From: Beroe forskalii
Taxonomy: Eukaryota; Ctenophora; Nuda; Beroida; Beroidae
Assembly: GCA_011033025.1 (NCBI GenBank)
Contig: WFMF01000017.1
Coordinates: 558,001-622,000, forward strand
Direction of reading: 5' to 3'
Length of the DNA stretch: 64,000 nt
Shown: positions 6,906 through 61,014 of the stretch, piece by piece
How positions within the stretch are numbered: position 1 is the stretch's first letter
How the letters are laid out: each line of letters starts with the position of its first letter
Position numbers and translations under genes: made by a program
The notes under the pieces: generated by a model
What the model was told of the DNA's origin: nothing
What the model saw: the letters and a program-made list of their open reading frames with translations, nothing else
Database searches by the model: none

Positions 6906-7911
6906 GGGTTCAGTTTAATTGTTAAAATTATAAAAATTATGGGAAAAGGAAAGGAATTATTTTGTTTTGTATTTTAATTGTTTTGTTTTTATAATGTTGA
7001 TAAAAAATAAATTTATTTTTTGAAAATTTCTTTCTCTTGGATGGAGCTTACAGTGCTGTCATTTTGTCTGTTCTTCCTATCAAAAGTTAATAGAGAACTA
7101 ACCGACGATGTTATTGACTCTTTATTAGATAATTTTTTGTTATTCTGACTTACGTGCACTTACAACATTTTAATTCAGATTATTATACTATTATTTGTGT
7201 ATATGTCACAGTACTAAGGGGTCTAAGTGCCCAACCATGGTGAACTCAGTGTAGATCATTGCTGTACGGCATGTTAGACAAGGAATCGAAGCTGAGGGAC
7301 ATTGCCATTGTGACATATGTGGTGATACAGAAAAGATTTAGATTGAATTAAAAAGAAATCTTCCTTCAAGACATCAATCTGCAGGATTAATATTCAGGCA
7401 GGGGGTCACTGCACTTGATGGTGCTATACCCTGGTACCAGGGGGTGACTGCTGGGGGCATACCTCATGAAAAGCTCTCGTAATTTAAACACCCCAAAGCT
7501 AAGGTGTGACACACACTTAGATCCTACTGCTTTCCACATTGCATTACCTAAAGGGATCATGTTGGTGCCTTGAAGGAAGTTTTCTATATGATTTGAATAA
7601 TGCAATGAATAATAATACATTTATGAATGAACTATAAATATATGAACTATAAATATATAAATGAACTATAAATTTTAAACTTAACAACCTACTAATTACA
7701 ATCAAATTTGAGAATGTTGTGTTACACTGTGGAGATCCTGAAGAAGAAATATTTAATTTCGAAACTTGCAGTCGATTAGTGGTATACATAGTGTGTGGGT
7801 TTGATATCATTTTTGAGATTTGTGTTTCACTGCATCAATGATCAATCACTTCAAACTATAAATCATTATAATGATAATCTTTTCCTGATAACTAAGTCAG
7901 CCCAGGTCAAA
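6906..7911. other. AT-rich spacer upstream of PSMB2 exon 1
   Basis: No recognised gene. A tandem 'atgaactataaatat' repeat lies at 7,620-7,675. On the minus strand a frame at 7,387-7,620 is open across a possible exon (acceptor-like AAG at about 7,575, donor-like AGGTATGC near 7,460), but I do not recognise the peptide. Confidence 0.4.
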
Positions 7912-15600: not shown

Positions 15601-16345
15601 TGCAGGGATTCTTATTTGATCATTATCCTTCAGAAACCATCAAGAAAATGGGAGGTTTATGTGCTAATTTTTGAGATATAATGCCAAACGCAAGGAAATA
15701 CCGACGAAAGTGGTTCAAAATGACAAAAAATCGATTCTTGGGCATGTTCGCACCGTTAAATTTTCTGAAAATTTGTAGGGATGTTCATCTTATCATTATC
15801 TTTCAAAGACCACCAAGAAAATTGAGGATCCATGTGCTTTTATCGAGAAATAAGGTCACACGCAAGGAAATACCAACGAAAATGGTTCAAAAATGACAAA
15901 AAGTCGATTTTGGGCATGTTCCCACCATTGAAATTTTCTGAAATTTGCAGGGATGCTTATTTGGGAGGTTTATGTGCTAATTTTCGAGATATAATGCCAA
16001 ACGCAAGGAAATACCGACGAAAGTGGTTCAAAATGACAAAAAGTCGATTTTTGGGCATGTTCTCACCTTTGAAATTTTCTGAAAATTTGTAGGTATGTTC
16101 ATCTTATCATTATCTTTCAGAAACCATATAAAGAAAATTGAGGGTCTATGTTCTCATTTTCGAGATATAATGTCAAACGCAAAGAATTACTGACGAAAAT
16201 GGCTCAAAATGACCAAAAGTCGAATTTGGGCATGTTCCCACCATTGAAATTTCTGTAATTTTGCAGGGATGCTTATTTGATCATTATCTTCAGAAACCAT
16301 CAAGAAAATGGAAGCTTTATGTGCTATTTTTGAGATATAATTTTG
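12600..16345. repeat. ~170-bp satellite, right arm of giant inverted repeat
   Basis: About 22 monomers in reverse orientation to the array at 3,785-5,760. Two monomer types, GTTCGCACCGTTAAA and GTTCCCGCCATTGAAA, tend to alternate and form ~345-bp dimers (for example 13,790-14,445 and 15,660-15,950). The arm is nearly twice as long as its partner. Confidence 0.9.
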
Positions 16346-20780: not shown

Positions 20781-22659
20781 CCCATATTCTCCCATTGTCC
20801 TATATATAGGACAGGTACTATATAGAAGCCTCATTTTGCAGAGAAACGTTATTTTTACTCAATTTCTTTTGCACTGCATGCCTGAAGGATGTATTGGGTC
20901 GTAGAAACAAACCTGAATGCATGGTTATTTTTTGAATGCATGATATATGCATAGAAAGTGGTACAATTTTCATGATTTCCAATTAACATGACCTAGCGTG
21001 ATATTTCCCAAAATTTGGACCAGCATGAATCTTGTTTTTACCTGTTATCGATAGCCAAGGCATGTGCAAATAATTATGGGCGGTTAAATTTTGTATATAA
21101 GAAATGCATAATTGCATAAAATTCATGCATAATTGAGTGTACTATATATAGTACGTTATTTGAAAATAGACGTACTATATCTGGTACGTCCTATAAGTAG
21201 GACATTATATGAAAATTTATGTCCTAAATATAGCACGTACTATATGTAGGACATTAATTTTTGAATAATGCTCTACATATAGCACGTATCTCGACATATA
21301 AGCCTCAACAGACTCGGCTAAAGCTCACCTGAATATGTTTGGTGGACTTGATTGGGCCTTTAGCACCAAAAAAAGTTTGCTGCAGAGTAAAACCACCATG
21401 GAGTAAAGCCTGTAGTGGAGTTTTAGTCCGTCAATCAATTCTACTGATGGAAGTTGCTAGCAGAATTTGCTCCGCAAGTGAACTCTGCTCCTATATCATG
21501 CATGTGTTCTACATTAGCGAAAAATAGTTCATAACGAACTCCTCAGTCCACCAGCGGAGTCTATTTTGCCCAGGAATCAACATGTATGAAAAACAGTTTA
21601 CATTCTACCAAGTGGTGTCTACATCTATCATATTGTGGTAATATTCGCATTGATTGAGCCTCGTTTCAATGGATAAGGACACTGCCAATTGCCAGCACAG
21701 GGGCCACTGGACATCACCTCGCAAATGCCTGGCGTCTATTTGAACTGCATTTTACAGGAAATTATATCAACTTCCCTCCTCCAAGTTAAAAGTTACTGAA
21801 TGATTAATTTAAATGCCGTGCAAACATGAACTAGTACGTGTATACAAACCCCCAACTGATCCCTCTTGACCACCGTCTGATCACTATTTAAACTGACCAT
21901 TTTCAATCGCTTATCAACATTCTTGTCCATTTATTTAGCCATTGGTACACTTTCATAGGTCAGGAGAGGTTAACCAAGGGGTCAGGAGAGGTTAACCAAG
22001 GGGTCAGGAGAGGTTCATCAGGGGTCAGGAGAGGTTAACCAAGGGGTCAGGAGAGGTTCATCAGGGGTCAGGAGAGGTTAACCAAGGGGTCAGGAGAGGT
22101 TCATCAGGGGTCAGGAGAGGTTAACCAGGGGGTCAGGAGAGGTTCATCAGGGGTCAGGAGAGGTTAACCAAGGGGTCAGGAGAGGTTCATCAGGGGTCAG
22201 GAGAGGTTAACCAAGGGGTCAGGAGAGGTTCATCAGAGGTCAGGAGAGGTTAACCAAGGGGTCAGGAGAGGTTCATCAGGGGTCAGTAGAGGGTTGCCAG
22301 GAGTCAGAGAGTCATTTGTACACTTTCATAGGACCAAAATAAGTTTTTGCTCCAGTTTTTCCTTCAATATGTTTGAAAACATCTGTAAATTTCGCCGGAT
22401 TGTCCACTTATTTACTCCCTACTACGTTTTATGAGACCCGTACTATATATAGTACATCATTTTTGAAATAATGTCCTTTATATAGTACAGCTACGGGTAT
22501 TTTTCAAATAACGTCCTATATATAGTACGGGCCGCCGCGCACGTGCAGAAAATGGTTTTGGCTCAAAACTTTCCTCAAACCTTAGTTAGTGTTATACTAG
22601 TCTTCAGACAAAAAATCAGCTCAAAAGATTGACGTTTTCGAGGTTCGGGAGAATATGGG
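20781..22659. mobile_element. Non-autonomous piggyBac-like element, copy 1
   Basis: Bounded by TTAA at 20,777-20,780 and 22,660-22,663, with 13-bp perfect terminal inverted repeats, CCCATATTCTCCC. TTAA duplication and CCC-starting ends are typical of the piggyBac superfamily. No transposase frame is visible. Both subterminal regions hold near-palindromes of the form GTNCTATATATAGNAC, with about eight in 20,796-21,290 and three in 22,437-22,530. A minisatellite fills 21,957-22,300. The element is inserted in the RT frame of the LINE; leaving it out with one TTAA keeps the RT frame open across the site. Confidence 0.9.
21957..22300. repeat. GGTCAGGAGAGGTTAACCAA minisatellite inside the TTAA element
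   Basis: Units of 20-21 bp alternate between GGTCAGGAGAGGTTAACCAA and GGTCAGGAGAGGTTCATCAG. Copy 2 of the element (55,897-56,410) has a longer array with a different unit order, which accounts for most of the length difference between the two copies. Confidence 0.92.
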
Positions 22660-31339: not shown

Positions 31340-32810
31340 AGCTGCAAGTCCCTTGAAGCCTTGAGATCACTGCTGCAAGTCCCTTGAGATTATTGCTGCA
31401 AGTCCCTTGAGATTATTGCTGCAAGTCCCTTGAGATCACTGCTGCAAGTCCCTTGAGATCACTGCTGCAAGTCCCTTCAAATAACTGCTGCAAGTCCCTT
31501 GAAGCCTTGAGATCACAGCTGCAAGTCCCTTGAAATTACTGCTGCAAGTCCCTTGAAGCCTTGAGATCACTGCTGCAAGTCCCTTGAAGCCTTGAGATCA
31601 CTGCTGCAAGTCCCTTGAAGCCTTTAGCCTTGAGATCACTGCTGCAAGTCCCTTGAGATCATTGCTGCAAGTCCCTTGAGATTACTGCTGCAAGTTCCTT
31701 CAAATAACTGCTGCAAGTCCCTTGAAGCCTTGAGATCACAGCTGCAAGTCCCTTGAAATTACTGCTGCAAGTCCCTTGAAGCCTTGAGATCACTGCTGCA
31801 TGTCCCTTGAAGCCTTGAGATCACTGCTGCAAGTCCCTTGAAGCCTTTAGCCTTGAGATCACTGCTGCAAGTTCCTTGAGATTACTGCTGCAAGTCCCTT
31901 GAGATTACTGCTCCAAGTCCCTTGAGATCACTGCTGCAAGTCCCTTGAGATTACTGCTACAAGTCCCTTGAGATCACTGCTGCAAGTCCCTTTAGATTAC
32001 TGCTGCAAGTCTCTTGAGATCACTGCTGCAAGTCCCTTGAGATTACTGCTCCAAGTCCCTTGAGATCACTGCTGCAAGTCCCTTGAGATTATTGCTGCAA
32101 GTCCCTTGAGATCACTGCTGCAAGTCCCTTCAAATAACTGCTGCAAGTCCCTTGAAGCCTTGAGATCACAGCTGCAAGTCCCTTGAGATTACTGCTCCAA
32201 GTCCCTTGAGATTATTGCTGCAAGTCCCTTGAGATTATTGCTGCAAGTCCCTTGAGATCACTGCTGCAAGTTCCTTGAGATTACTGCTGCAAGTCCCTTG
32301 AGATTACTGCTGCAAGTCTCTTGAGATTACTGTTCCAAGTCCCTTGAGATCACTGCTGCAAGTCCCTTGAGATTATTGCTGCAAGTCCCTTGAGATCACT
32401 GCTGCAAGTCCCTTCAAATAACTGCTGCAAGTCCCTTGAAGCCTTGAGATCACTGCTGCAAGTCCCTTCAAATAACTGCTGCAAGTCCCTTGAAGCCTTG
32501 AGATCACAGCTGCAAGTCCCTTGAAATTACTGCTGCAAGTCCCTTGAAGCCTTGAGATCACTGCTGCAAGTCCCTTGAAGCCTTTAGCCTTGAGATCACT
32601 GCTGCAAGTTCCTTGAGATTACTGCTGCAAGTCCCTTGAGATTACTGCTGCAAGTCTCTTGAGATCACTGCTGCAAGTCCCTTGAGATTACTGCTGCAAG
32701 TCCCTTGAGATCACTGCTGCAAGTTCCTTGAGATTACTGCTGCAAGTCCCTTGAGATTACTGCTGCAAGTCTCTTGAGATCACTGCTGCAAGTCCCTTGA
32801 GATTACTGCT
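31340..32810. repeat. CTGCTGCAAGTCCCTTGAGA minisatellite, 3' end of BPI copy 1
   Basis: About 60 units of 23 bp (CTGCTGCAAGTCCCTTGAGA plus TCA/TTA), mixed with longer variants that contain GAAGCCTTGAG. The array runs straight into the BPI coding sequence and supplies its stop codon (TAA, 32,803-32,805). It therefore lies in the presumed 3' UTR, read on the minus strand. Confidence 0.95.
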
Positions 32811-35000
32811 GCAAGTCGATGGAGATGTCGTCAAGGTGGAGGAGAATGTACTCCTCCTGGTAGCTGATATCTGCTCTTCCCACCGTCAGATACTCCTGTG
32901 GGATGTTCAGGGGGATCCCACTCCTCACGTCCTCCTCTATCATCTCCGCTAGATTCTCCTCCAGCATGCCATTCAGCAGTCGCTCTATCGCATCCAGGAT
33001 CCTGTCCCCCTCGTCCAGCCTCCCCTGGCCAGACTCCTTCATCCCGGCTATGTCAATTCCAGCGTAGAGTTTCACGGCCCAGAGGTCGGCCGAGGCCGTG
33101 ACATTAGGAATAAGAGAGTACCGACCGTCCTTCTTAGCTAGCCTCACAGTTCCCTGCCATTCCGTCAGAGTCTCGAACTCCGTCTTTATCTCCAGCTTGG
33201 GAGAGTCGCTGAACAGCGCGACACGTGCTCGAAGGTTCACCGACACGGAGACCCCGGTCCTGGTGATGCGGACCTTTGGCGGGCCTGTGCTGCTGATCTT
33301 CACCGTCATGCGGGTGAATCCCGACAGGTCGCTCTCCAGGAACTTGACTCGGGTGGTGTTGAGGCGGGTGCCATATCGGCTCACATCAAAACTTACCTCG
33401 CCGCCTGACCTGCTGGTCTCCTCCAGTTCGAACTTTAGTAGGTCCAGATGGTGGAGGTTTTGGATGACTCTAGAGATCAGATCCTCAGTAAGCACGATGG
33501 AGACCCCGCTGTTAGGACCTGGGACTGCGCTGCACCAGTCCCTCGCTTGTCTCCGTCCCTTGCGTGGCTGATCCGTGGTGGGGATGAAAGGTGGTGTGAC
33601 AATCTCTGAAGAACTTGTGTTCTTCCCGCTCACTTCCATTGAAGCAGGACTAGCGATTACAGCACATGTGTCACCTCCGGTTATAGCTGACGGGCTGAAG
33701 TCTACTTTTAGCTCTCCTCCTGTTTCTAGTGGTAGTGAGAATTCCTGGTGAAACATGGCATCGTCAAAGTCTTCTGCTGCTGTGCCGAACACCTTGTTCA
33801 CTCCCTTACACGCATTCTCCTCCATCTTATGCTTTAAATTGCCCTCAAAAAGCCAAACGACTATGTCAAGAATCCAGCTGTACCAAGATCCATTGATGTC
33901 AATGTCAAGGGACCCCATGTCGGCGCTGCAAGAACTCGGCAAATACGAAAAGCCAACCTGTCCGTCCGATTTCTGTCCGAGAATAACGCTAGTACCAATA
34001 CTGAAGCCTCTCGAGCTAACGTCTACCCCTCCGCTCAAAGTGACTGAGTACCACCAGGTTTTCTTGCGCCACCTGAAGAACTCCAGTTGAAATAACAGAC
34101 AGCAATAAGGGATCGTTCACATATTACGAATGATTACGTAGCATACTATTGTAACAAATACAGCATAGTATTGTAACAAATACAATTACTGTAAACTTGA
34201 TAACAAGGGGGAGGGGGTGGAATCGGTTAAAAATTGATTACGTAATATGTGAACGATGACTAAGTAAAATATAAAAGTTAAGGCAGCTAACTTAGTAACA
34301 TGTCAGAGGTTTACATACTAGTATTCTAAGTAAGGGTGCATCAAATTTCAAGTTTTCTAGTACCTCCAGCTGCCGGAAGCTCGGATAGAACCCCCGATTT
34401 TCACGTCAATCACGAGCTGCCCAGTTCCATTTCCGGGGCTGCCGTCGTTCCGTAGGGTGATAGAGGGGTGCAGGTCAAGTCCGTTGGCTCGCACACCCCA
34501 GTAGCTGAACAAACCGCTACTTCCGCTGAATGATTCGCTCTGCAGAGGAGTTTCTCGTAATTGTTATTACCTTAAACTTGCTTTATAATCGCAAGTTAGG
34601 AAAAAAGTTTTTATAAAAGAGGAATGCTGATCAATTAATGTGTATTTATAATTATGTATTTCTAGGTTTGGTTCAAGAAAATGAATTCTTTATGTTGTTG
34701 GCTTGTTATCACTTATCATCCTCGATTTTTAACTATATGGGGCTCTTATCAAGTGGTTAATTAACAATGGAAATTCTCCCAAATTTATTGAGTTTGAAAT
34801 GATCTGTTCTCTCGAATCTATCTAGTAAAAAACACCAACCATACCTTCAAAAGCGTAGACGCTTTATCCGTCACTTCGTCAGCGAAGTCCTGCAGAAATT
34901 CCTCGGAAATCTTGCCGATTACACCTTTGTTTAGTGGGGATACGAGAGTGGTCTGACTCGCCCGGACCAGAAACAGGACTAGAACTAGCTTCACCAGCAT
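32803..35000 (-). CDS. BPI/LBP/CETP-family secreted lipid-binding protein, copy 1
   Basis: Three exons on the minus strand: 34,845-35,000 (start ATG; signal peptide MLVKLVLVLFLVRA), 34,364-34,539 and 32,803-34,072, giving 533 codons with matching phases. The family forms boomerang-shaped extracellular proteins that bind lipids such as lipopolysaccharide; the exact ligand here cannot be read. Family features are the N-terminal barrel with the two Cys of the conserved disulfide (SSCSADMG and ENACKGV), the amphipathic WLFEGNLKHKMEE segment, and the C-terminal stretch LNIPQEYLTVGRADISYQ ending in LLHLDDISIDLQQ. A Pro/Thr-rich linker (about residues 260-280 of the protein) joins the two halves. 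It is convergent with BBS4 and has a near-identical paralog at 44,010-50,055. The stop codon lies in the minisatellite. All frames are intact. Confidence 0.9.
34112..34257. mobile_element. MITE in BPI copy 1 intron 2
   Basis: Terminal inverted repeats ATCGTTCACATATTACG / CGTAATATGTGAACGAT, with a G-rich tract near one end. It is present at the same site in copy 2 (45,322-45,474), so it predates the duplication. Confidence 0.75.
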
Positions 35001-37718: not shown

Positions 37719-40442
37719 TCAGTCTTCTTGGGCAGCCTTGTCCTTCTTTGCATTCTTCTGGTAGAACACTTTCCTTTGTTCCTTAGCTCGAGCTCCTTTC
37801 TTAGCGTCAACTTTGGCTTGCTCTGACGGAATGATTGCGATCATATATCGAAGGACATATATCAATGTCAAGAACAAACATGGCTTATCGGTCATTTCTG
37901 TTTTTCAGAAATAATGGGAACTTATGAAAAATTGTGCCACGTTTTCAGAGGTACTGGTTACGGTGGATACCGGATACGTGATGTCACATTTAAAATCATC
38001 ATCCACTAATTATTCGAAACTATTCGTAGTTCCCCATGCTTACCGGCAAGATATTTCTCCTTTTCCTTCTTTTTCTTCTCCAGTTTCTTCTTGTCACTTT
38101 CCTTCTGTGCAGTGAGTAGCTGCTGCATCAGCGATGTCAATCTTCTTTCACCTGTTGAAAGACAAAGTTGATAATATTTATTTTAAAAAACATCAAGGTA
38201 GCCATTATGAAGAGGAAAATTTTACAATAACTTTCTGGTGATCTCTCTCTTGCTATAATCAGGAATGGAGCTGCAAAACCTGCAATTTCAGCAATATCAT
38301 TTCAATCAAATCATACCTGGCTCGGACACGACAGCGCGTTTCGTCGTGTACAGCTGTTTCTTCCGTTTATTCTCAACTTTGGGTTTCGTCTTGAAGGGCA
38401 GCTCCTTTTGGAGTGATTTCGATACTGCCAGCGGTCGGAACACTTTAGCTCGGCGCTCTATCTCCTTGTAAATCGAGTCTTGGGGACGTTTAGAAACTAA
38501 GCAATGCATTTGGAAATGTCGGAATAAATCCTGAATGTATTGCAAATCATGGAACTGCATTATTTTCACAATTAATTTGAAAAACTGTTCGAAGTTCAAC
38601 CATACTTAGAAACTTCGCAATATTCTTAATATAAGTAAACGACTCCCTGAAAATTATAATACCTGTTTCACGGGTATCATCTCGCCTCGTTCCCTCCGGA
38701 GTTCTCCCACAGTTCGCATGCCACTCCACGCTTTATCCTTACTCAGCAGGTTGATGACTGGAGCGTAGAACCGGGGTACTTCCACACTCACCCAACACCG
38801 CAGAAACACGATGTCAGAGATCTGGATCTGAGGGAAACACGATGTCAGAGATCTGGATCTGAGGGGGAAATACGATGTCAGATATCTGGATCTGAGGAGT
38901 AGTGAGGATGATAAGGGTTCAATGCCGCACATTTTCAATTTCCGCCTGGATATACAGAATCCTCGAATCTCGCCTGGGGTTCTCATTTACGCTTTAATTT
39001 CGCAATTTTGATTAAAGGGCGATTTATAACTTGCCAAAAGCCTAACATACCTTGTCTTCGAATGACGCTCTGAAGGCGCCAGCGGGAGCGGACAGTGCTC
39101 GTTTGATCTGTCCTCTGATTCCACTCACAGTCTTGATCATGGCCCCTTCGAACTTAGACACCTGCGATTTGGCAATGATTCTACAAAATGCTAAAATGCC
39201 GCGATTCTTCATAGCCCCTAGTAAGCGTGGGTCCTGAGGCCAAGGAATTTTGTTCAATGTTTTTTTCTAGCATATTAAATCAATGATTATGGCCGCCATA
39301 CCATAATCTCTATTCCTAACCTCGAGTATTGAAGAAAACATTCCCTTGAGGAAGGCTGTGTTCTTGAAGATCTTGTAGGGGGTGCCGGTGAGTTTCAGCT
39401 TCTTCACAACATCAACGGTTTTGTCAAGTCCCAGCACCACTCCCGTGGCAACAATCCGAAAGGAGGAAGTTTTAGTGGCCGTAGCACCCTGGGAGAATAG
39501 ACCGGACTTAAAGTTATTATTTAATGACGAGTGCAGAAGAATCAGAAGAATATGGACAAACATGAAGCTTGACAACCTTAGAAATAATTGTTCAGTGGGT
39601 TTTGTCAGAGCATTGAAGAATTAATGAAGAATGAATAACTACACCAGCGCACCGCACTCTTTGCCATGACTTGATCAAAAAGGATGTCACTGACTTTGTC
39701 AACAAATAAACCCATTACCCCAAGGTCTGTGGTATACCTGAGTAGCAATGAAGGTAGTGTTGGGTGTCTGAAATAGTTACAATCTACCTGAGTAGCAATG
39801 AAGGTAGTGTTGGGTGGAGCCAGGGGTCCGTAGAACGTAGCGTGACAGTGCATGTGTTCAGGAGTGTACTTCAACATTCGTTGTCTCATGTTGTGGTCCT
39901 GGGAAACGATTGTACAACGCTATAAATTAACGTCACGAACGTTACAAACTCTTGATAATTCTATCGCGCTTAAAAAGTTAAAAAGTCTGAAAATACAAGA
40001 AAACTTTATAAAAATTTCAAAATTTTCAACACGTTCATTTTTCGATTGTTTATAGAATCTTATAAGAAATTTACAAATACTTTACCTGTATTGAGTAGAC
40101 TGGACGTGTCTGGAACCTACGCCATCCCAGGGACACTATGATAGGGTCTTGGTTCTTGAGAATCTTCGGATACCATCTAGCGGGGGATCAAATCAGTGAC
40201 TCGTCACAATTTCCGTTGGTTACCTATTCTCTCCGCTTGTTATTCTCAACATTTTTAATTTTAATTGAAAATACATCATCGTTGAAAATAATGAGGGAGA
40301 GCGTTCCTTGAACAGAAGCAAGAAAAAAAGGCAGATTGAAATATTTTATTCTACACACTAGGTGCATTTCCATAACATATCCCATTATCCTAACCTGTGT
40401 CGCTTGGTACGTGTCTGCAGTATTCCCATCTGATGCTCCAGA
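37719..40442 (-). CDS. BMS1, ribosome biogenesis GTPase, C-terminal exons only
   Basis: Minus-strand exons: about 40,395-40,442 ([11 protein letters not shown]), 40,086-40,176 ([18 protein letters not shown]), 39,788-39,898 ([18 protein letters not shown]), 39,321-39,488 ([18 protein letters not shown]), 39,051-39,161 ([18 protein letters not shown]), 38,663-38,827 ([18 protein letters not shown]), 38,317-38,478 ([13 protein letters not shown]), 38,044-38,151 (Lys-rich coiled coil) and 37,719-37,822 (stop TGA). BMS1 works in the small-subunit processome with RCL1 in the nucleolus. These ~360 codons are the conserved C-terminal third; the GTPase domain is absent, because the next upstream sequence is a BBS4 fragment. 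The phase between the exons ending at 38,663 and starting at 38,478 is off by one base, so a sequencing error or unusual splice site is likely. One acceptor (38,827-38,891) is triplicated. Confidence 0.92.
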
Positions 40443-43774: not shown

Positions 43775-44030
43775 GCTGCGTTGTCTGCAAGTGCAAGTCC
43801 CTCACTGCTGCAAGTCCCTTGAAGCCTTGAGATTATTGCTGCAAGTCGATGGAGATCACTGCTGCAAGTCCCTTGAAGCCTTGAGATTATTGCTGCAAGT
43901 CCCTTGAGATTATTGCTGCAAGTCCCTTGAGATTATTGCTGCAAGTCCCTTGAGATTATTGCTGCAAGTGCAAGTCCCTCACTGCTGCAAGTCCCTTGAA
44001 GCCTTGAGATTATTGCTGCAAGTCGATGGA
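43775..44030. repeat. CTGCTGCAAGTCCCTTGAGA minisatellite, 3' end of BPI copy 2
   Basis: About nine units, against about 60 in copy 1. One internal unit (around 43,847) reads GCAAGTCGATGGAGAT, which is the end of the BPI coding sequence itself. This suggests the array grew from the 3' end of the gene. Confidence 0.93.
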
Positions 44031-47000
44031 GATGTCGTCAAGGTGGAGGAGAATGTACTCCTCCTGGTAGCTGATATCAGCCCTCCCCACCGTCAAATAC
44101 TCCTGTGGGATGTTCAGGGGGATCCCACTCCTCACGTCCTCCTCTATCATCTCCGCTAGATTCTCCTCCAGCATGCCATTCAGCAGTCGCTCTATCGCAT
44201 CCAGGATCCTGTCCCCCTCGTCAATCCTCCCCTGGCCAGACTCCTTCATCCCGGCTATGTCAACTCCGGCGTAGAGTTTCACGGCCCAGAGGTCGGCCGA
44301 GGCCGTGACATGAGGAATAAGAGAGTACCGGCCGTCCTTCTTAGCCAGCCTCACGGTTCCCTGCCATTCCGTCAGAGTCTCGAACTCCGTCTTTATCTCC
44401 AGCTTGGGAGAGTCGCTGAACAGCGCGACACGTGCTCGTAGGTTCACCGACACGGAGACCCCGGTGCTCGTGATGCGGACCTTTGGTGGGCCTGTGCTGC
44501 TGATCTTCACCGTCATGCGGGTGAATCCCGACAGGTCGCTCTCTGGGAACTTGACCTGGGTGGTGTTGAGGCGGGTGCCATATCGGCTCACATCAAAACT
44601 TACCTCGTCGCCTGATCTGCTGCTCTCTTCCAGTTCGAACTTTAGTAGGTTCAGATGGTGGAGGTTTTGGATGACTCTAGAGATCAGATCCTCAGTAAGC
44701 ACGATGGAGACCCCGCTGTTAGGACCTGGGACTGCGCTGCACCAGTCCCTCGCTTGTCTCCGTCCCTTGCGTGGCTGCTGCGTTGGCGGGATGAATGGTG
44801 GTGTCACAATACCTGGAGGAGAACTTGTGTTCTTCCCGCTCACTTCCATTGAAGCAGGAGTAGCGATTACAGCACATGTGTCACCTCCGGTTATAGCTGA
44901 CGGGCTGAAGTCTACTTTTAGCTCTCCTCCTGTTTTTAGTGGTAGCGAGAATTCCTGGTGAAACATGGCATCGTCAAAGTCGTCTGCTGCTGCGCCGAAC
45001 ACCTTGTTCACTCCCTTACACGCATTCTCCTCCATCTTATCCTTTAAATTGCCCTCAAAAAGCCAAACGACTATGTCAAGAATCCAGCTGTACCAAGATC
45101 CATTGATGTCAATGTCAAGGGACCCCATGTCGGCGCTGCAAGAACTCGGCTGATACGAAAAGCCAAACCGTCCGTCCGATTTCTGTCCGAGAATAACGCT
45201 AGTACCAATACTGAAGCCACTCGAACTAACGTCTACCCCTCCGCTCAAAGTTACTGAGTACCACCAGGTTTTCTTGCGCCACCTGAAGTACTTCAGTTGA
45301 AATAACAGAAAGCAATAAGGGATCGTTCACATATTACGTAATCACCTAGGGGGGGGGGATGTTTCCGAATGACTACGTAGCATATTATTGTAACAAATAC
45401 AATTACTGTAAACTTGATAACGAGGGAGAGGGGGTGGAATCGGTTAAAAATTGATTATGTAATATGTGAACGATGACTAAATAAAATATTAAAGTTAACC
45501 CTGCTAAAACTGGCACGAGGTTGATTCCACCTCGCCCTCCTCTTCATTTGGCCATAACTTAGCTGTTACTTAATGTATGAGTTATTGACACACATGTATT
45601 TTAGCAGAATTTTATCTGCTTTAAGACCATATAACTTTTATTTAACTATTATCTTAAAAACATTAAGAAATTTAGTGGTTTTTAAACATAATCAGAAAAA
45701 AATTGGCTGATATAGTGGTTTGTCCCCATTACTCTGCATCCAGAACCCGACCCGAGGTGGAATCAACCTCGCCCTCCCAGACACGCTAATTAGCTTACCT
45801 TAGTGGTAGAAATTATGATGTGTACTTATTATGACGAATGAAATTATGATCGGTACTAATTATGATGAAAAAATTTTGGGATAAAAACAAACATTTTTGG
45901 CGAACAACCAGTGGAATGAAATTTCATTATTTTTGAACCATTTTACCCGGCCGTTTGAACCAAAATTGTCCATAATCCTCCGAAATTTGGTCAAAAGTCA
46001 TGAAACAAGCCTTGATGCCGGCTATTTTCTGACAAAATCATTTCTTTTAGCATGATTTACAATTTTACATCCATAATAGTGCTAACTTTCAACATCATGG
46101 TGATTGGGAAGTTAATGCACAATGCACATTCACATTGTTTTTCGACCGATGTTGTCGGTGTTTTCATTTTGGATCAAATGTAAATTTGGTCTTTGATAAG
46201 GTCTGGCAGTAAGGTAGCTGTTTTCGGTGTTTTCATTTTGGATCAAATGTAAATTTGGTCTTTGATAAGGTCTGGCAGTAAGGTAGCTGTTTTCGGTGTT
46301 TTCATTTTGGATCAAATGTAAATTTGGTCTTTGATAAGGTCTGGCAGTAAGGTAGCTGTTTTCGGTGTTTTCATTTTGGATCAAATGTAAATTTGGTCTT
46401 TGATAAGGTCTGGCAGTAAGGTAGCTGTTTTCGGTGTTTTCATTTTGGATCAAATGTAAATTTGGTCTTTGATATTAAGGTCTGGCAGTAAGGTAGCTGT
46501 TTTCGGTGTTTTCATTTTGGATCAAATGTAAATTTGGTCTTTGATAGGGTCTGGCAGTAAGTTAGCTTATTTAGAGGTTAGGGCATTGGTTATTGGTATC
46601 AAATAAGTTGAGTGAAACTCCGTAATTTATGGAAACTCCATGATATGATAGCACCGCAACCTTTGATTTTGAAAATTTGCTGATTGAAGTTGTATCGCAA
46701 AGATGTGAAAAGGGCCTTGGAGCCAGCCATAATTTTTGGGCAACATGGTCATTGGTCATCCTGGTTGTTTCAACATGCTTTCTTAAAGTCTAAATAATGG
46801 TCGAATTTTGACAAAGTACAAATTATGATCGGTAGAAATTATGATGTGTAGAATTTATGATGCGTACTAATTATGATCATTTTGCGAAAATAATCATAAT
46901 TAGTACGCATCATAATTTCTACCACTAAGGTACTTGCAAGGAGGCGTTCCGTTGCCGTAATTTTGTAGATGTGATCACAGCACGTATCATATATCATAAG

Positions 47001-52225: not shown

Positions 52226-52574
52226 TAATTGATAAGATACTCAAATCTGTAATTAATGATTCGGTTTAGTTGGAAATTGCAGTCTGTCTCCACCCGACAA
52301 TTTTGGGGCAGTCACAATTTTGGGGCAGTCACACTGATTTTAGGTATTTTAGTAAGAGTTCATGATTCCGTGAAAGTGGAAGCAAATTGGAAACACTTGG
52401 AAACACATGTGAAAATTTTCACAAAAAATGTGAAAATGGTTTTATGTATTATTTTGAGGGCTGAAATGTGTAAATGGTTCAGACATGTTTGTATAGCGAA
52501 TGCAAGTTACTTAGGATCGTTTTTGGGAGTTTTGAGAAGTTCTGGGTTTCATCGTTTTAATTAGCATAATCTAC
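52226..52574. other. End of duplicated block and spacer before the USF exon
   Basis: GGGGCAGTCACA is repeated in tandem (52,310-52,335). Homology to copy 1 then ends near 52,352. The remainder shows no gene; a 102-codon plus-strand frame (52,256-52,564) has no support. Confidence 0.4.
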
Positions 52575-55500
52575 CTTCGTTGTGGGTTTGTCTGCGTTTT
52601 TCTTCTCTTTCTGTCCGCTGACTGCTCAGAGACGTGTCCCTGAAAGTAAAAGGGGTTATTCTTCAGTCGAAAGGGGGTTACAATCAGGGGGATGGGCTAA
52701 TTGGGGAGAATGGGTTATTCTTGAGTCGAAAAGGAGTTGTAATCAGTGATGAGTCACAGACAAGGTTTAAATAAGGGGTTATAATTAGGATGGGTTTTTG
52801 TTTCCATAATTTAAAAGGAAACGGAGATTCTTTCCATTAAAAAAGGAAGTAGAGATTCTTGAAGCACTATTGTAGTGGAAGTGCATGAGAGTGTAACTAA
52901 TCCGGCAGTGTAATGTTAATAGTGGTGAATTATGTAAATCAACCTCGCCCCCTCAAGAAGAAATGGCCAAACAGCTTCAAATCTTTAAAATCCGGTATAT
53001 TTTCTTTAAAATGACACAAAAATTGATTGTCTTTAAGGAAGTCTCTTGGTGAGATTATTATAGAACGCTGCGTTCTGTAATGCGCAGCTCATGTGAGTGT
53101 CAGAGAGCGGTCTCCTGATTGGTGCATCTGGGTCACGTGACAGCTCCGCACGGCCTCTGATTGGCTGCGCTGAGTCACGTGACAGCCCAGGCCGGCTTTT
53201 CATTGGTCCAGCCACCGCACATGACGTCACGGCTTTGTGTGAGTTGCGGGAGGAGGCCACGTGACCACCCCGCTATGCAATGCAGCTGAGGCAGCGCTGC
53301 TCTCTCATTGGCTGAGCGGTTACTCTGCGCGCTCTGATTGGTCAGAATGTTCCGACAGCTGAGCTACACGCGGCTGCAGCACCGATATAATTACTTGTGT
53401 TGAGTATACCATTGTGCCAGCCAATGGGAGGGCAGCTCCGATCCACCTGACCAATCACAGCACAGAAAAGCAGGTCACGTGACACAGCAGCAACACACCA
53501 CGTGGGCTACAGTAAATGAGTCAGCTCAGTAGGAACATGACACACGTGTGCAGACCCACGTGACTCTTTCCCTGCACGTGGTGCTCAAGCGTTGATTGGC
53601 TTAGCAACGCACGTGGGCGGGTGGTGATTGGCTTAGCAACCCACGTGGGCTGTCACGTGACTTTTCATCACGTGTGGATACACACAGTCCGTCACGAGAG
53701 CTGAACAGCGCGGAGTCTCGTGATGTATTAGAAATCTACTGAGAGAATATAAGCTTCTTAGGGAGGAAGGAGCGTGTATAATGTAGCGTATAAAGTTCTT
53801 AAAGAACCTTAATCAGCTAATTATGAGGAGGTGCTTACACAATTAGTATATCGTGTTTACATAATTATATCGTACTACTCAATTAATTATCAAACAGGAG
53901 CTCGTAGCTTTGATTGAGTGTATATAGCGATTATTGGTGTCAAATTTAATGTTTACTATGGATTAGTGCAGTACCAAGGGATTATATTAACGAACAAGGA
54001 GCGAAGATAAAAACATATATTTACACCGCCGCAAAGATTATATAAGCAGTGCCATATCATTGACATACCACACTAAATCATGATAATGACAAAACTTAAA
54101 ACCATCTTTTGTGAGCTCAATACAGAGCTCTAGGGTTGTCTGTAATCTTCACTAATTAAGTAATTAGAGTGTGTAATTTGGACGATATTATATACTTTTG
54201 TATTGAGCATGGTTCAGGTTTTAATTACACGGAATAGCAATCCTGCGTTCTTTTGAGCAATCTCTGCGGGAGTTTTACAACTATCAACTTTTCTGGTTTT
54301 TATACCAAATTTCTATACGAATTTTATACAAAAATTTTCTATCAGCTCTCAATTCTGAAATTCTATAGAAATAAGAAATTATAACGATAAAATTAGGTGG
54401 AAATCAAAAACCACTTCATTCTAAATGGCCGTTGAGTAGCTCAAAGAAAAGAATAATCTCCTTCTTCTCCAGTCCTACACCCGTTCAAATTACAGCGACA
54501 CAAGGAAGTTAATATTGATGCCATTTTCAGGGCTGAAAGTGGTGAATTGATGATGTCATTATCAGGGCTGAGAGCCGTGAATTGATGACATCTAAAACTC
54601 ACATCTCACGCGCGCAGAATTTGCCATCATCTGCAGATCATTCAGGATATACCTTAGTGTAAAACGTAAAGTCATTGGCTGAAATTAATACACCGCCAAC
54701 AACATAGTGTGCGTTTAACCCATATTCTCCCATTGTCCTATATATAGGACAGGTACTATATAGAAGCCTCATTTTGCAGAGAAACGTTATTTTTACTCAA
54801 TTTCTTTTGCACTGCATGCCTGAAGGATGTATTGGGTCGTAGAAACAAACCTGAATGCATGGTTATTTTTGAATGCATGATATATGCATAGAAAGTGGTA
54901 CAATTTTTCATGATTTCCAATTAACATGACCTAGCGTGATATTTCCCAAAATTTGGACCAGCATGAATCTTGTTTTTACCTGTTATCGATAGCCAAGGCA
55001 TGTGCAAATAATTATGGGCGGTCAAATTTTGTATATAAGAAATGCATAATTGCATAAAATTCATGCATAATTGAGTGTACTATATATAGTACGTTATTTG
55101 AAAATAGACGTACTATATCTGGTACGTCCTATAAGTAGGACATTATATGAAAATTTATGTCCTAAATATAGCACGTACTATATGTAGGACATTAATTTTT
55201 GAATAATGCTCTACATATAGCACGTATCTTGACATATAAGCCTCAACAGACTCGGCTAAAGCTCACTTAAATATGTTTGGTGGACTTGATTGGGCCTTTA
55301 GCACCAAAAAAAGTTTGCTGCAGAGTACAAAACCACCATGGAGTAAAGCCTGTAGTGGAGTTTTAGTCCGTCAATCAATTCTACTGATGGAAGTTGCTAG
55401 CAGAATTTGCTCCGCAAGTGAACTCTGCTCCTATATCATGCATGTGTTCTACATTAGCGAAAAATAGTTCATAACGAACTCCTCAGTCCACCAGCGGAGT

Positions 55501-58500
55501 CTATTTTGCCGAGGAATCAACATGTATGAAAAACAGTTTACATTCTACCAAGTGGTGTCTACATCTATCATATTGTGGTAATATTCGCATTGATTGAGCC
55601 TCGTTTCAATGGATAAGGACACTGCCAATTGCCAGCACAGGGGCCACTGGACATCACCTCGCAAATGCCTGGCGTCTATTTGAACTGCATTTTACAGGAA
55701 ATTATATCAACTTCCCTCCTCCAAGTTAAAAGTTACTGAATGATTAATTTAAATGCCGTGCAAACATGAACTAGTACGTGTATACAAACCCCCAACTGAT
55801 CCCTCTTGACCACCGTCTGATCACTATTTAAACTGACCATTTTCAATCGCTTATCAACACGTCTTGTCCATTTATTTAGCCATTGGTACACTTTTATAGG
55901 TCAGGAGAGGTTAACCAAGGGGTCAGGAGAGGTTAACCAAGGGGTCAGGAGAGGTTAACCTAGGGGTCAGGAGAGGTTAACCAAGGGATCAAGAGAGGTT
56001 AACCAAGGGGTCAGGAGTGGTTATTGGTTAACCAAGGGGTCAGGAGAGGTTAACCAAGGGGTCAGGAGAGGTTAACCAAGGGATCAAGAGAGGTTAACCA
56101 AGGGGTCAGGAGTGGTTAACCAAGGGATCAAGAGAGGTTAACCAAGGGGTCAGGAGCTGGTTAACCAAGGGATCAAGAGAGGTTAACCAAGGGGTCAGGA
56201 GTGGTTATTGGTTAACCAAGGGATCAAGAGAGGTTAACCAAGGGGTCAGGAGAGGTTAACCAAGGGATCAAGAGAGGTTAACCAAGGGGTCAGGAGCTGG
56301 TTAACCAAGGGGTCAGGAGTGGTTATTGGTTAACCAAGGGGTCAGGAGAGGTTAACCAAGGGGTCAGGAGAGGTTAACCAAGGGGTCAGGAGAGGTTCAT
56401 CAGGGGTCAGTAGAGGGTTGCCAGGAGTCAGAGAGTCATTTGTACACTTTCATAGGACCAAAATAAGTTTTTGCTCCAGTTTTTCCTTCAATATGTTTGA
56501 AACCATCTGTAAATTTCGCCTGATTGTCCACTAATTGACTCCCTACTACGTTTTATGAGACCCGTACTATATATAGTACATCATTTTTGAAATAACGTCC
56601 TTTATATAGTACAGCTAACGGTATATTTCAAATAACGTCCTATATATAGTACGGGCCGCCGCGCACGTGCAGAAGATGGTTGGGTCTCAAAACTTTCCTC
56701 AAACCTTAGTTAGGGTTATACTAGTCTTCAGACAAAAAATCAGCTCAAAAGATTGACGTTTTCGAGGTTCGGGAGAATATGGGTTAAATGTGTGACGTGT
56801 GTGCGTGAATTGGACACTGAGTTCAACAACTTCATTCTTGAAAATACTTCATTGTTTGTTCAACTTCATGAAGTTCAACGAATTCATTCTTTAGAACTTA
56901 ACAACTTCATTCTTTGGAACTTGACACAACTGCATTCTTAATGTGCAAAACTTGAACTGACGTGTGTGTGAACTTAACAACTTCATTCTTCAACTTCATA
57001 CAAAACTTTATACAAAACTTCATACAAAACTTCATTCTTCAACTTCATACAAAACGTGAACTGGAACCAGCTACAAGCATGATACCCCTGCATTACGCGA
57101 TGGTATTTGTGTGTTTTAAGGGGTTGAATGCATCGTAGTAATACGGTGAGAAATAAAGCCCCGAACTCCGAAGGGGCCTTTATTACTGACCGTATCACGT
57201 ACTAATACTGCAACCACTAGAAGGGACGAACATATTTTAATTCAAGATTTGTTTCGAAAACCACTCTTTTTTAGCAGTTTTGCAACAAAACTTAAAATGT
57301 GCGTCCTTGCTAGCAGTTGCAGTATTAGGGATTATAAGCAGTGGTGAATAAGGGTTCAATCTGAGTTTTAATTTTAGCATCAGAGCACGTCATGTCATCT
57401 GATTGTTTAAGTTCGCTTCCATTTTAGGCGTAATAAGTAATAATAGAGAGTAAGTCTTACGATACTAAGATCGTCCACTACCACCTTGTTCAGGTAGAAG
57501 GGAACACAGCTGCGAATTGCGATTGATATCGACGGCGAATTCGGGATCCTTCATTGGCCATTGCCGAAGCCGAACCCTTAAAATTGGCCGACGCAAGCTG
57601 AAGCTTCGGTCGATAAATGGGTGTAGCCCGTTAATATTGATTGAAATGAAGTGGTTAAGGAGTAAAATGGGGGGTAAAGTGGTTTAAGAATGACATGTTT
57701 AAGAAAGTAAGAATGGTTTACCGATGTGAAGTGAAGCGGATGATCTGTTCCCCCTCATCAGACAAACAAGGACTCCGAACCAGGGGCGGAACTAAACTGA
57801 TCTCCGTCTCCCTTTTCTCCGTGACTCTGACTTTGGTTGGCATCATGCCAGATACCTTCCCAGACCTTGGCATGATGCCAGACACCTTGTCAGATCTTGG
57901 CATGATTCCAGAAACCTTCCCAGATCTACAGAGGGAAGACACAGAGAAAGTGTCTTCAGTCACTTGGCTGCTGGGTAGGATGTTGCGAGGTGCTCTTGGT
58001 CCTCCTCCACGGGGTCGCTTTCGAGAGGTTTTCTTCTTTGTGGAGAGTTTTTCATTGGCATCCCCGAGTTCTTTCCCATGGTTTTCATCAGAAGAATCAT
58101 AATCTGGGTTCTCCCCATTTTCAGTGATAGCCAGGATATTTTCTTTGTCTTGATGAGCGTTGCTAGGTGACATTGCTCCGTTGCTAGGCAACTGAGTGTG
58201 AAGTCCCGGTGACAGTGCTTGGTTGCTAGGCACCGGTGACAAAGTGACAGGTGTTAAGGAGATAACATCACCCCGGTGACACTGACTGAACTGAGTCTGG
58301 AAGTAGGGTGGTGGCATGAGGAAGTGGGGAGGCATCAGGGGCTGGTGAGGAGGTGAGTAGGGGTGAGGAGGTGAGGCTCTTCTGGGTGGTGAGGAGTGAG
58401 GTGGGCTGCGGGAATAGGGGTGTTTTGAGTGAAAATTACTTAAAATTAGCGTAAATTATTTGAAATTATAGTAATTAGTAACATGTTTCAGTATCATGAC

Positions 58501-59662
58501 GTTGCATGCTAACAAGAATGTTTTAAGTTCTCTCAGACTATATTTTGAAATAGATGAAAATAACAGAATCCATCGTCCAGTGACCAGTCACCAGTGTAAT
58601 CAAGTTTTAACACGATTAAGATATTATGTATAAAAAGAATCAATTATCTCAGCTGCCGAATTTAACTGCCAATATGGATCACACATCATTTTCCTGCATT
58701 ACGAGTTAAATTCTTTGTCTAGAAATTCTGCAGAAACTGCTTGCTCGTGTGCAGTGAGGAATGATAATTAATGAAGGCTGAAGCAGCCTCTAGACTCGCT
58801 CAAGCAACCTCTAGACTTGCTGAAACACCCTCTAGAGTCTAGACTCACGATTACTGACCATGAAGTGCAAATATCGCTTTAAACACGGAGTGAATGATGC
58901 ATGAAATCTACAACTGATGGTTGGTTGGATCAAGTCGCGAGAAAGACGTAATATAATATGAATCACCTTCAAAACATTTGACACGTCTAAGTGTTGCTCA
59001 AAAATAGTCTGGTCGTCGTCCTCAACTTCCATTCATACCATGATATTGACGTCTTCAAAGGCAAAAAAGGATGTGCGAAACCTATTTAAAACCTCTGTAA
59101 AACCCATTTAAAACCTGTGTAAACCTATGTAAAAACCGGTGCAAAGTTGCAAACCTATGTAAAACCTGTGTAAACCTACGTAAAAACCCATTTAAAACCT
59201 GTGTAAACCGATGTAAAAACCGGTGCAAAGTGCAAACCTATGTAAAAACCTGTGTAAACCTATGTACAACCTGTGTAAACCTACTTAAAAACCCATTTAA
59301 AACCCGTGTAAAACCTATGTACAACCTGTGTAAACCTACGTAAAAACCCATTTAAAACCTATTTAAATCCTGTGTAAACCTATGTAAAAACCTGTGTAAA
59401 CCTATATAAAAACCTGCGTAAAACCTATCTAAAAACCTATCTAAAACCTGTGTAAAACCTATTTAAAACCCGTTTAAAAACACATCACACATCACTTACC
59501 CGGCCCCGTGTGCGCGGGGAGCTATCTTCTGGTGGTTCACATCTACTGGCGACTGCGGGATCATCACGTAGAACTGGCCAGCGCCCGCGGGCCCATTCGG
59601 CAGGTTGAGGATCTGCCCGCCAACCCCGGGGTTAGCTGTCCCAAGGTTCAGGATCTGACCCG
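52575..59662 (-). CDS. USF-like bHLH-leucine-zipper transcription factor, partial
   Basis: Three minus-strand exons with matching phases: 59,500-59,662, 57,722-58,405 and 52,575-52,639. Exon 1 holds the USF-specific region GQFYVMIPQSP...QKIAPRAH, preceded by two GQILNL repeats. Exon 2 (228 codons) begins with HPYSP-type residues, is rich in Pro/Ser, has an acidic-to-basic linker (SRKRPRGGGPRAPR) and three 10-11-residue repeats of KVSGIMPRS. Exon 3 gives TEREEKRRQTHNE, the start of the bHLH basic region, including the His and Glu that in this family contact CACGTG. USF proteins are nuclear activators that bind E-boxes as dimers. The helix-loop-helix, zipper and N terminus are not found in the window. 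The linker between USR and bHLH is far longer than in vertebrate USF1/2. Downstream it abuts the duplicated block. Confidence 0.75.
53118..53674. promoter_or_regulatory. Dense CACGTG E-box and CCAAT-box cluster
   Basis: Twelve CACGTG hexamers start at 53,134, 53,176, 53,258, 53,476, 53,499, 53,543, 53,557, 53,575, 53,610, 53,642, 53,654 and 53,669. Four are full GTCACGTGAC palindromes. Nine CCAAT/ATTGG boxes start at 53,118, 53,160, 53,202, 53,307, 53,337, 53,421, 53,451, 53,595 and 53,627. There is one perfect TGACGTCA (53,222) and one TGAGTCA (53,517). A GATTGGCTTAGCAAC + CACGTGGGC module is duplicated at 53,594-53,649. It lies inside the 5.1-kb intron of the USF-like gene. CACGTG is bound by USF, MITF/TFE and MYC-MAX factors; CCAAT by NF-Y. 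It could be an intronic enhancer, an internal promoter, or the promoter of an unseen gene. Confidence 0.85.
53700..54714. other. USF intron between E-box cluster and TTAA element
   Basis: AT-rich, no gene. Two near copies of GGGCTGAAAGTGGTGAATTG / GGGCTGAGAGCCGTGAATTG lie at 54,530-54,590. If the cluster is a plus-strand promoter this would be its leader, but no frame is open. Confidence 0.4.
54719..56783. mobile_element. Non-autonomous piggyBac-like element, copy 2
   Basis: Same family as 20,781-22,659: 13-bp ends CCCATATTCTCCC, flanked by TTAA (54,715-54,718 and 56,784-56,787), with the same subterminal GTNCTATATATAGNAC near-palindromes. It is nearly identical outside the minisatellite, so the family moved recently. 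It sits in the intron of the USF-like gene. Confidence 0.92.
55897..56410. repeat. GGTCAGGAGAGGTTAACCAA minisatellite, element copy 2
   Basis: About 24 units; variants GGGATCAAGAGAGG and GGTCAGGAGTGGTTATTGG are interspersed in a pattern absent from element copy 1. Confidence 0.92.
56790..57721. other. USF intron, 5' part
   Basis: AACTTCATTC and CATACAAAACTT short repeats (56,815-57,055). A small hairpin lies at 57,138-57,192 (arms ACGGTGAGAAATAAAGCCCC and its near complement). No exon was recognised between 57,200 and 57,721. Confidence 0.45.
59080..59485. repeat. AAACCTRTGTAA minisatellite in USF intron 1
   Basis: Roughly 20-24-bp units made of AAACCTATGTAAAAACC and TGTGTAAACC variants; degenerate, about 18 units. 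It ends 15 bp before the donor of exon 1, read on the minus strand. Confidence 0.88.
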
Positions 59663-59880
59663 CTGAAAGAGGCGTATCTGTTGTGATTGAGAAGGGGGGT
59701 TTCGAGATGGAGGGAGGGGGTTAAGAAGGAGGTTTAAAAGGGGGTATCTGTTGTGATTGAGAAGGGGGGTATCAGTCGAGAGGGGTTTCAGAAGACCTTA
59801 TAATGGGGTTTGAGAGGTTGTAGACCGCACACAAACAATAGGCGGTCGAAAGTGCTGTCATTCCCCTGAATTAAACAAGG
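59663..59880. other. G-rich intronic repeat upstream of USF exon
   Basis: TCTGTTGTGATTGAGAAGGG occurs twice (59,678 and 59,747), followed by GGGGTT-rich sequence. The USF N-terminal exons would lie beyond, in the poor sequence or past the gap. Confidence 0.5.
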
Positions 59881-61014
59881 GAATCTATGATACCATTCTG
59901 CCTATTGCTAGCGCGCGGGTTCTTTTGTCGTTGAAAAGGATTCAATGGAAAAGATTTGAGTGGACAGCCATAATATCATTTGTTTTTTTGCTTATTTTGA
60001 TTCTCTTTCTCGGAAAAATCAAAAAAAAAAAAGGGATTTTTCTTTTTTTTAAAAAAAGGGGGTTTATTGTGGTTTATTTATTTACGGTAAATACAAAAAA
60101 TGCCCTGAAATGAACTTATTTTCGGGACAACAAAATTTAATTTTTAATGAAAATTGCCTTTGATGCTTTGCTAAAAATTTTTGATTCTTAAGTGTAAAAC
60201 CATAAAAGGAAGTTTTAAAATTACAGACCCAAGTAAAGTACTTTAAACAGATGGGAAGGAGGGAAAAGAAAATTTGGTTAGAATCAATTTTTTGGTTAAA
60301 CACATTTACTTTTTTGGGCTGACTTTTTCAAAAAAAAAATTTTCAGGGCCTAAAAAAATTTTTCGAAAAATTTTAAAAAGTCAATAAAAAAAAACCTTCC
60401 CTTTGGGTGACACCACCCAAGGGGGGGAGGGGCAATCTGATTTTTTTGGTTTTCCCCAAAGGGCTTTGAAAAAAATTTCCAAACCCAAAGGAAAAATTCC
60501 AAAATATTTTGGTTCAAAAAAATATTTTAATTTGGGGAAATTGGTGAAAAAAAAAGGTAAATTAAAGGAAAAATTTTGGAATTTAAAAACAAAAAGCCCT
60601 TCAATTAAAGGAAATAAAAGGGAACGAAATTAAAGGGAATTTTTTCCCCAGAAAATTCAGGGTTAGGGGAAGAACCCTTTTTTAAAGGCATGGCCCGGGA
60701 AACAAGAATTAATTTATAATGGAAAAGCATTCACTTGAAATTTTCCCGATAAAAAATTAAATTAAGTTTGGGGCCCCCGGGAAAGCTAAACCTTTACAAG
60801 GGAAATTTTCATAACTGGGATGCTCTGTTTAAAATTTTGTAGGGTTTTAATTTTTTGGGTTTAATTTTTATATAGAAAATTGGAAAAATAAAACCCGGGG
60901 AAAAAGGGGAAAAAAAACTATTTCCCCCAAAATCTACGGGTTTTATGGTAAGCACCTTTAGTTACTAGGGCCCGACTGTTCCCTGGCAACTAACCTTGCT
61001 ATTAACAGTACACT
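59880..61014. other. Low-quality contig end
   Basis: From about 59,980 nearly every A, T, G or C tract is a homopolymer run of 4-12 bases and the sequence lacks the texture of the rest of the window. It leads directly into the N gap. It is best read as error-rich consensus; frames here are meaningless. Confidence 0.75.

Follow-up and report, generated by a model that had tools for sequence, protein, structure and literature searches.

The window, a 64-kb stretch of DNA (C214:558001-622000), carries part of a minus-strand gene of the USF type, and in an intron of this gene lies a dense cluster of E-boxes and CCAAT boxes (53118..53674, 557 bp) that we propose to be a cis-regulatory element; features given here without a strand are unstranded. 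The cluster sits 5' of the basic-region exon of the gene, DTSLSSQRTEREEKRRQTHNE (52575..52639, minus strand), which stands between AG and GT. Two further minus-strand open frames were assigned to the gene: a proline-rich one at 57718..58455, by position and strand and with exon borders not fixed, and one at 59499..59720 with the USF-type motif GQILNLPNG...GQFYVMIPQ...KIAPR, which was seen, by eye, also beside the bHLH region of another USF gene on contig C405. Pfam returned no match for either frame. A motif search of the window's minus strand found no continuation of the bHLH region, and the USF gene is incomplete in the window.

A second copy of the gene lies on C1033, a 27.7-kb contig (1-27674). 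There the gene continues with a bHLH exon (7101-7181) and a zipper-like frame (6297-6665) that by eye resembles that of the C405 gene; a candidate amino-terminal frame at 15545-16246, with no family match, perhaps belongs to it as well. The C1033 bHLH exon had no second match in the assembly among the matches listed. The basic-region exon encodes an identical protein in both copies, with four synonymous differences. Fused into one query, the basic-region exon of the window (with EKRRQTHNE) and the bHLH exon of C1033 matched USF first among solved structures (1AN4, E 4e-11; 8IA3, E 8e-11), which bears out the earlier note's reading of the host gene as USF-type. Its placing of the cluster within that gene also holds, in an intron, though the window copy is without the rest of the bHLH region.

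The two copies have in common window positions 52546..60093 (8564-13913 in C1033), in pieces that are 74-92% identical; past 52546 and 60093, the window and C1033 have no match that reaches 150 bits. The shared open frames, counted with provisional exon borders, differ more at synonymous sites (pS 0.116, 28/241 sites) than at nonsynonymous ones (pN 0.016, 12/746), on which measure both copies seem to have been under protein constraint. The loss of homology at 52546 and 60093, together with the absence of the bHLH exon, suggests a structural difference between haplotypes, a partial duplication or a misjoin. In our reading, C214 and C1033 are haplotypes of a single gene, and either C214 or C1033 is altered or misassembled at its borders; alternatively, they may represent a partial duplication. 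Within the USF intron, window positions 54719-56899 are an insertion missing from C1033. This insertion and window positions 21139-22292 have in common arrays with a 49-bp period and with a 22/43-bp period (GGTCAGGAGAGGTTAACCAAGG), and on account of these arrays the insertion has the look of an element that is mobile or was duplicated.

Elsewhere in the window there are many other tandem arrays, with units of 22-69 bp, as well as large 172-174-bp tandem-repeat arrays on opposite strands at 3958-5749 and 12608-15962. Two minus-strand open frames (32803-34116 and 44010-45326, the latter matching LBP_BPI_CETP in Pfam, E 1e-8) are very similar and, on that similarity, form a recent duplication. 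An exon of a TSR1/BMS1-type ribosome-biogenesis gene lies on the minus strand at 39267-39617 (RIBIOP_C, E 7e-18). Rfam and tRNA scans of the 64-kb window gave no matches.

The cluster contains 12 CACGTG E-boxes, starting at 53134, 53176, 53258, 53476, 53499, 53543, 53557, 53575, 53610, 53642, 53654 and 53669 (541 bp end to end), nine CCAAT boxes (seven written ATTGG and two CCAAT) and a CRE, TGACGTCA, at 53222..53229. The decamer GTCACGTGAC occurs at 53132, 53174, 53474 and 53652 and nowhere else in the window; the same decamer is the CLEAR element of TFEB/TFE3, which targets lysosomal genes. A recount of positions and a motif search of 53118-53674 reproduced the figures of the earlier note (12 CACGTG in 541 bp, nine CCAAT boxes, four decamers, one CRE), and its expectation of roughly one CACGTG per 4 kb is near the density that we measured in control pieces, 0.195 per kb or roughly one in 5 kb. 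The G+C content of the cluster is 57%, vs. 39.5% for the window.

Local tandem duplication accounts for part of this density. Two duplicated units of 42 bp (about 53116-53199) and two of 32 bp (about 53593-53657) were recognized, and every one of them bears one CCAAT box and one E-box. The 42-bp units form an alternating series at 53118..53206, in the order ATTGG 53118, N11, CACGTG 53134, N20, ATTGG 53160, N11, CACGTG 53176, N20, ATTGG 53202, which has both of the spacings preferred genome-wide (see below). The 32-bp units, ATTGG-N10-CACGTG at 53595/53610 and 53627/53642 (53595..53647), have the first of these spacings, and CCAAT 53451-N20-CACGTG 53476 (53451..53481) has the second.

Shuffling and control sequences indicate how unusual the cluster is. 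The window holds 22 CACGTG, compared to a mean of 8.43 in 100 shuffles (sd 2.95, largest 16), and 2000 dinucleotide shuffles of the 557-bp cluster yielded on average 0.52 CACGTG (maximum 6) and 0.83 CCAAT/ATTGG (maximum 5). No more than 5 CACGTG per 557 bp were found in any of 57 control pieces (271,693 bases, comprising the window after masking of the cluster, 22 further bHLH loci, 4 stretches from the neighbourhood and 30 Ras loci), and no more than 7 in eight clusters taken out of contig C1 (the 7 in L069), in contrast to 12 in the window and C1033 copies alike. Over the whole genome (216 Mb), GTCACGTGAC occurs 4773 times vs. 354 for the reversed word, and three CACGTG in a row with gaps of 5-35 occur 5742 times vs. 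2022 for the control, some of these being plain tandem repeats. A genome search with 601 bp, in which very common words were skipped, returned two matches, the cluster itself and C1033 (97% identical), and a high-copy repeat family is thereby ruled out for the cluster sequence. The earlier note had raised the prospect of a repeat family spread over the genome; since dense E-box clusters are frequent genome-wide, that doubt was right for the class of clusters and wrong for this sequence.

Comparison of the two copies points to constraint on the motifs. Between the window and C1033 the cluster differs at 17 of 557 bases without a single indel, vs. 7 and 11 indel events in the flanks, and the differences fall on none of the 125 motif bases vs. 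17 of the 432 other bases (P 0.018). C1033 retains all 12 E-boxes, all nine CCAAT boxes, the CRE and three of the decamers; the fourth decamer, at 53652, is without its first base there. Divergence in the cluster is lower than at synonymous positions in the frames common to both copies (P 6e-6) and lower than in the left flank (P 0.001). Compared with the right flank it is not lower (P 0.22), so the constraint spans a wider block than the cluster. Unequal histories along the USF locus may be the source of this conservation pattern.

A genome-wide count of E-boxes paired with CCAAT boxes, made on both strands, revealed two preferred spacings, each with its own orientation. ATTGG-N10-13-CACGTG occurs 1601 times (521 for the reversed-word control) and the flipped CCAAT-N10-13-CACGTG 413 times (control 378), while CCAAT-N17-20-CACGTG, the most enriched arrangement counted, occurs 1872 times (control 217) and the flipped ATTGG-N17-20-CACGTG 529 times (control 382). 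These counts (1601 / 413 / 529 / 1872) correspond to an odds ratio of 13.7. Totals for all spacings of N5-30 are 4519 for ATTGG (control 2105) and 4589 for CCAAT (control 1662). The reversed-word control is imperfect, as its own N10-13 count for ATTGG (521 of 2105) exceeds the share of 4 in 26 spacings; swapping the orientation controls better, since CACGTG reads alike on both strands. The spacing classes were picked after the first 100 listed places per orientation, which the whole-genome counts include: in these, 48 of 100 ATTGG-N5-30-CACGTG places fell at N10-13 (4 of 26 spacings, P 2e-14), and 41 of 100 CCAAT-N5-30-CACGTG places fell at N17-20 (P 7e-10), with 10 of 100 at N10-13. The spacer sequences were varied (21 groups among 23 printed spacers at 75% identity), and the spacing rule therefore does not stem from one repeat.

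Under this rule, six of the nine CCAAT boxes and six of the 12 E-boxes in the cluster take part in seven conforming links (53118/53134, 53160/53134, 53160/53176, 53202/53176, 53451/53476, 53595/53610 and 53627/53642). When nine boxes were placed at random relative to these E-boxes, the mean was 1.3 links, and seven or more arose with P 0.0003 (20,000 trials), a value to be read with the tandem units in mind, which leave some of the seven links non-independent.

Human USF1/2 and MITF sites are reported to lie 10-12 bp 5' of CCAAT (PMC7793273), and a second study puts the CCAAT box 17 or 18 bp downstream of the E-box (PMC7046753); if the latter distance is counted centre to centre, it corresponds by our own arithmetic to ATTGG-N12-CACGTG. 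Going by the USF1/2 spacing that these two reports give for human cells, the first geometry is the human NF-Y/USF geometry, which the cluster has at 53118/53134 and 53160/53176 (N11) and at 53595/53610 and 53627/53642 (N10). Single human pairs are described with 10 bp at HoxB4 and 21 bp at HoxB7 (PMC5223348), and human NF-Y and USF promoter clusters are described as almost mutually exclusive (PMC6238301), which counts against a general rule. For the second geometry as a class, CCAAT-N17-20-CACGTG, we found no description in the literature as far as its accessible text goes. No paper on the spacing rule outside vertebrates was found by title or abstract, in a literature mostly without subscription journals.

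The C405 USF gene (L013 and the adjoining L072) has a cluster of its own, with 12 CACGTG within 321 bp; this cluster is some 750 bp upstream of a bHLH-bearing open frame (a coding exon) that matches USF2 (8IA3, E 1e-15). Eight of these E-boxes are in L013, and the rest are in 600 further bases that were added because of the L013 cluster. No CCAAT link in the C405 cluster conforms to the rule, so the two USF elements differ in construction. Nor was homology between the two clusters borne out: the best blastn match spans 35 bases at 80% identity (E 2e-4) and the others are mostly the E-box words, so that common descent is not supported. The 3153-base locus of a third USF-like gene (L016, identified by its match to 8IA3, E 2e-11) contains no CACGTG. 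Thus, the densest clusters seen are in two of the three USF-like genes found. Since the choice of the window was itself due to its cluster, independent evidence comes from C405 only. With the PF00010 profile there were 24 exon-level bHLH matches among the matches listed, a small set reminiscent of sponges; by eye, one bHLH gene (L007) was named MITF/TFE-like and another MAX-like.

Eight clusters were chosen from at least 26 places, all on C1, among the matches listed. Two of them are directly upstream of homeodomain open frames (Pfam PF00046; L068, C1:401400-405400, and L069, C1:519600-523600), one (L070) is directly upstream of an ATG-led open frame with no family above the cut-off, one (L076) is within an open frame lacking a family assignment, and four (L071 and L073-L075) are beside no visible gene, with L073-L076 viewed with less than 0.7 kb of flank per side. 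Given this mixed placing, we make no claim that E-box clusters are generally promoters. Nor was CACGTG supported as a universal core-promoter word: 30 Ras-family loci (100,801 bases), many of them tandem copies and the minus-strand ones counted unturned, hold 17 CACGTG vs. 25 of the reversed word, and TCACGTGA was absent from them.

The density of sites, their place in a USF intron, the unchanged motifs, the second USF cluster and the spacing rule are direct observations. It is very probable that the cluster is a cis-regulatory element, either an intronic enhancer or promoter-like, and we consider it fairly probable that its predicted readers are a USF/MITF-class bHLH protein together with NF-Y. 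As the best explanation of the whole we favour, with somewhat better than even confidence, an intronic USF/NF-Y element that feeds back on the USF gene. CACGTG-reading bHLH-zipper dimers, most likely USF itself, would occupy the E-boxes; NF-Y would sit on the CCAAT boxes in fixed register with them, leading to joint binding; and the USF product would most likely feed back on the USF gene and tune its transcription. Binding, the identity of the bound protein and whether the feedback is positive or negative are the parts of this scheme that we infer. Several observations weigh against the scheme: L016 has no E-box, the C405 cluster has no conforming link, half of the 12 E-boxes take part in no link, the divergence is not below that of the right flank, human NF-Y and USF promoters are described as nearly exclusive of each other, and E-box clusters lie near many other genes. 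For the autoregulation suggested in the earlier note, the case is evenly balanced: the second USF gene with 12 E-boxes, the unchanged motif bases and the human NF-Y/USF geometry speak for it, and the lack of CACGTG at L016 speaks against it.

A general E-box/CCAAT element whose main readers would be bHLH-zipper proteins of the MITF/TFE, MAX or another family, for which the USF host would be coincidental and without self-regulation, is an appreciable though distinctly less likely reading. The genome-wide abundance of the decamer (4773) and of three-fold CACGTG matches (5742) fits it, as do E-box clusters near many other genes, e.g., the homeodomain frames at L068 and L069, and the presence of MITF/TFE-like and MAX-like bHLH genes in the genome. 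A MITF/TFE protein like that of L007 could be the main alternative reader of the sites, as the distance to CCAAT reported for human MITF is that of USF. However, both of the densest clusters seen are those of USF genes, and MYC/MAX alone would not explain the spacing, given that human MYC and MXI1 are reported without a fixed distance to CCAAT (PMC7793273).

We think it unlikely that the cluster is an internal promoter, whether on the minus strand, for a shortened USF that has the bHLH-zipper but lacks most of its amino-terminal part, or on the plus strand, for another transcript. It is a G+C-rich island with promoter words (CCAAT, CRE, E-boxes) and directly precedes the basic-region exon, and E-boxes are reported to be enriched at sponge start sites (PMC4773876). 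But the frame of the basic-region exon is stopped 8 codons upstream of the exon, and there is no donor-like site scoring at least 7/9 between the cluster and the exon, so the internal promoter for a shortened product that the earlier note had put forward gained no positive support. Seven donor-like sites scoring exactly 7/9 are inside the cluster itself, several created by CACGTG. The cluster may house a first exon or give rise to a transcript that is non-coding. The promoter of a plus-strand gene was rejected, as 53601-54718 has one ATG frame of at least 25 aa (25 aa, at 54585) and beyond 54718 lies the insertion missing from C1033.

It is very improbable that there is no regulatory element here but local tandem duplication in a genome made CACGTG-rich by repeat growth or mutational bias: the 42-bp and 32-bp duplications, a window full of tandem arrays, CACGTG arrays that are plain tandem repeats (e.g., C1:891951-892064) and the over-representation of CACGTG (rank 6 among 6-mers and observed/expected 1.84 in the sequence examined) agree with such an origin, but the bases unchanged between the copies are the motif bases, and mutational bias would not yield a fixed, orientation-specific CCAAT distance with varied spacers.

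The favoured USF/NF-Y element most resembles the NF-Y/USF elements described for human cells (PMC7046753, PMC7793273), with the same orientation and the E-box 10-12 bp 5' of CCAAT, that is, ATTGG-N10-12-CACGTG compared to N10-13 in the present genome. Unlike these, it packs many such pairs into 557 bp within a USF gene, and its occupancy is predicted; in the present genome the other geometry, CCAAT-N17-20-CACGTG, outnumbers the human one. In the sponge Amphimedon queenslandica, CACGTG-type E-boxes (G-box) are reported to be enriched around start sites and to be four times more frequent in bidirectional than in unidirectional promoters; the accessible text of that survey does not mention a CCAAT partner, a spacing rule or clusters (PMC4773876). 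The holozoan ribosome-biogenesis E(CG) regulon, described from choanoflagellates to humans, has CACGTG as Myc:Max sites in ribosome-biogenesis promoters, whereas the present host is a USF gene (PMC2570694). Membership in this regulon was rejected on the host gene and on the intronic position of the cluster. The R6 repeat of apple MYB10 is likewise a case of a transcription-factor gene with duplicated sites for its own product, but there a 23-bp unit is present six times in the promoter, with binding and activation demonstrated, while the present cluster has mixed units in an intron, for two factors whose binding is putative (PMC5671642).

The two orientation-specific CCAAT/CACGTG spacings found genome-wide are new, apart from the first, which was already known from human. 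They may tentatively be taken as a strict two-geometry grammar (E-box-N10-13-CCAAT and CCAAT-N17-20-E-box) by which NF-Y and a USF/MITF-type bHLH factor would come together, and whose two forms can alternate in units of about 42 bp, as they do in the cluster, with USF genes holding its densest form as a feedback element, although we rate this below an even chance. If the grammar is true, the first geometry, being the human one, would predate the split of this organism and vertebrates, and the second would be a further class. Given the turnover of regulatory DNA, distance rules between transcription-factor sites have seldom been traced over deep divergences among animals. The small bHLH set suggests an early-branching animal; if the organism is one, simple counts in other genomes could test how old the NF-Y/USF arrangement is, with the flipped orientation as a built-in control. 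The USF cluster also lends itself, as a small natural example, to the question of whether the sites of a transcription factor are densest in the gene that encodes it.

Smaller groups of E-boxes were noted on C1033, with 5 CACGTG at C1033:15435-15576 (L032:5435-5576), beside the putative amino-terminal USF frame, and 4 CACGTG in a further cluster at C1033:23815-24008 (L033:3815-4008). X-box-like words are also present near E-boxes: TTAGCAAC adjoins both 32-bp units (window 53600-53650), and GTTGCCATGGTAAC is in L001:1000-2000. These words may be RFX-type sites.
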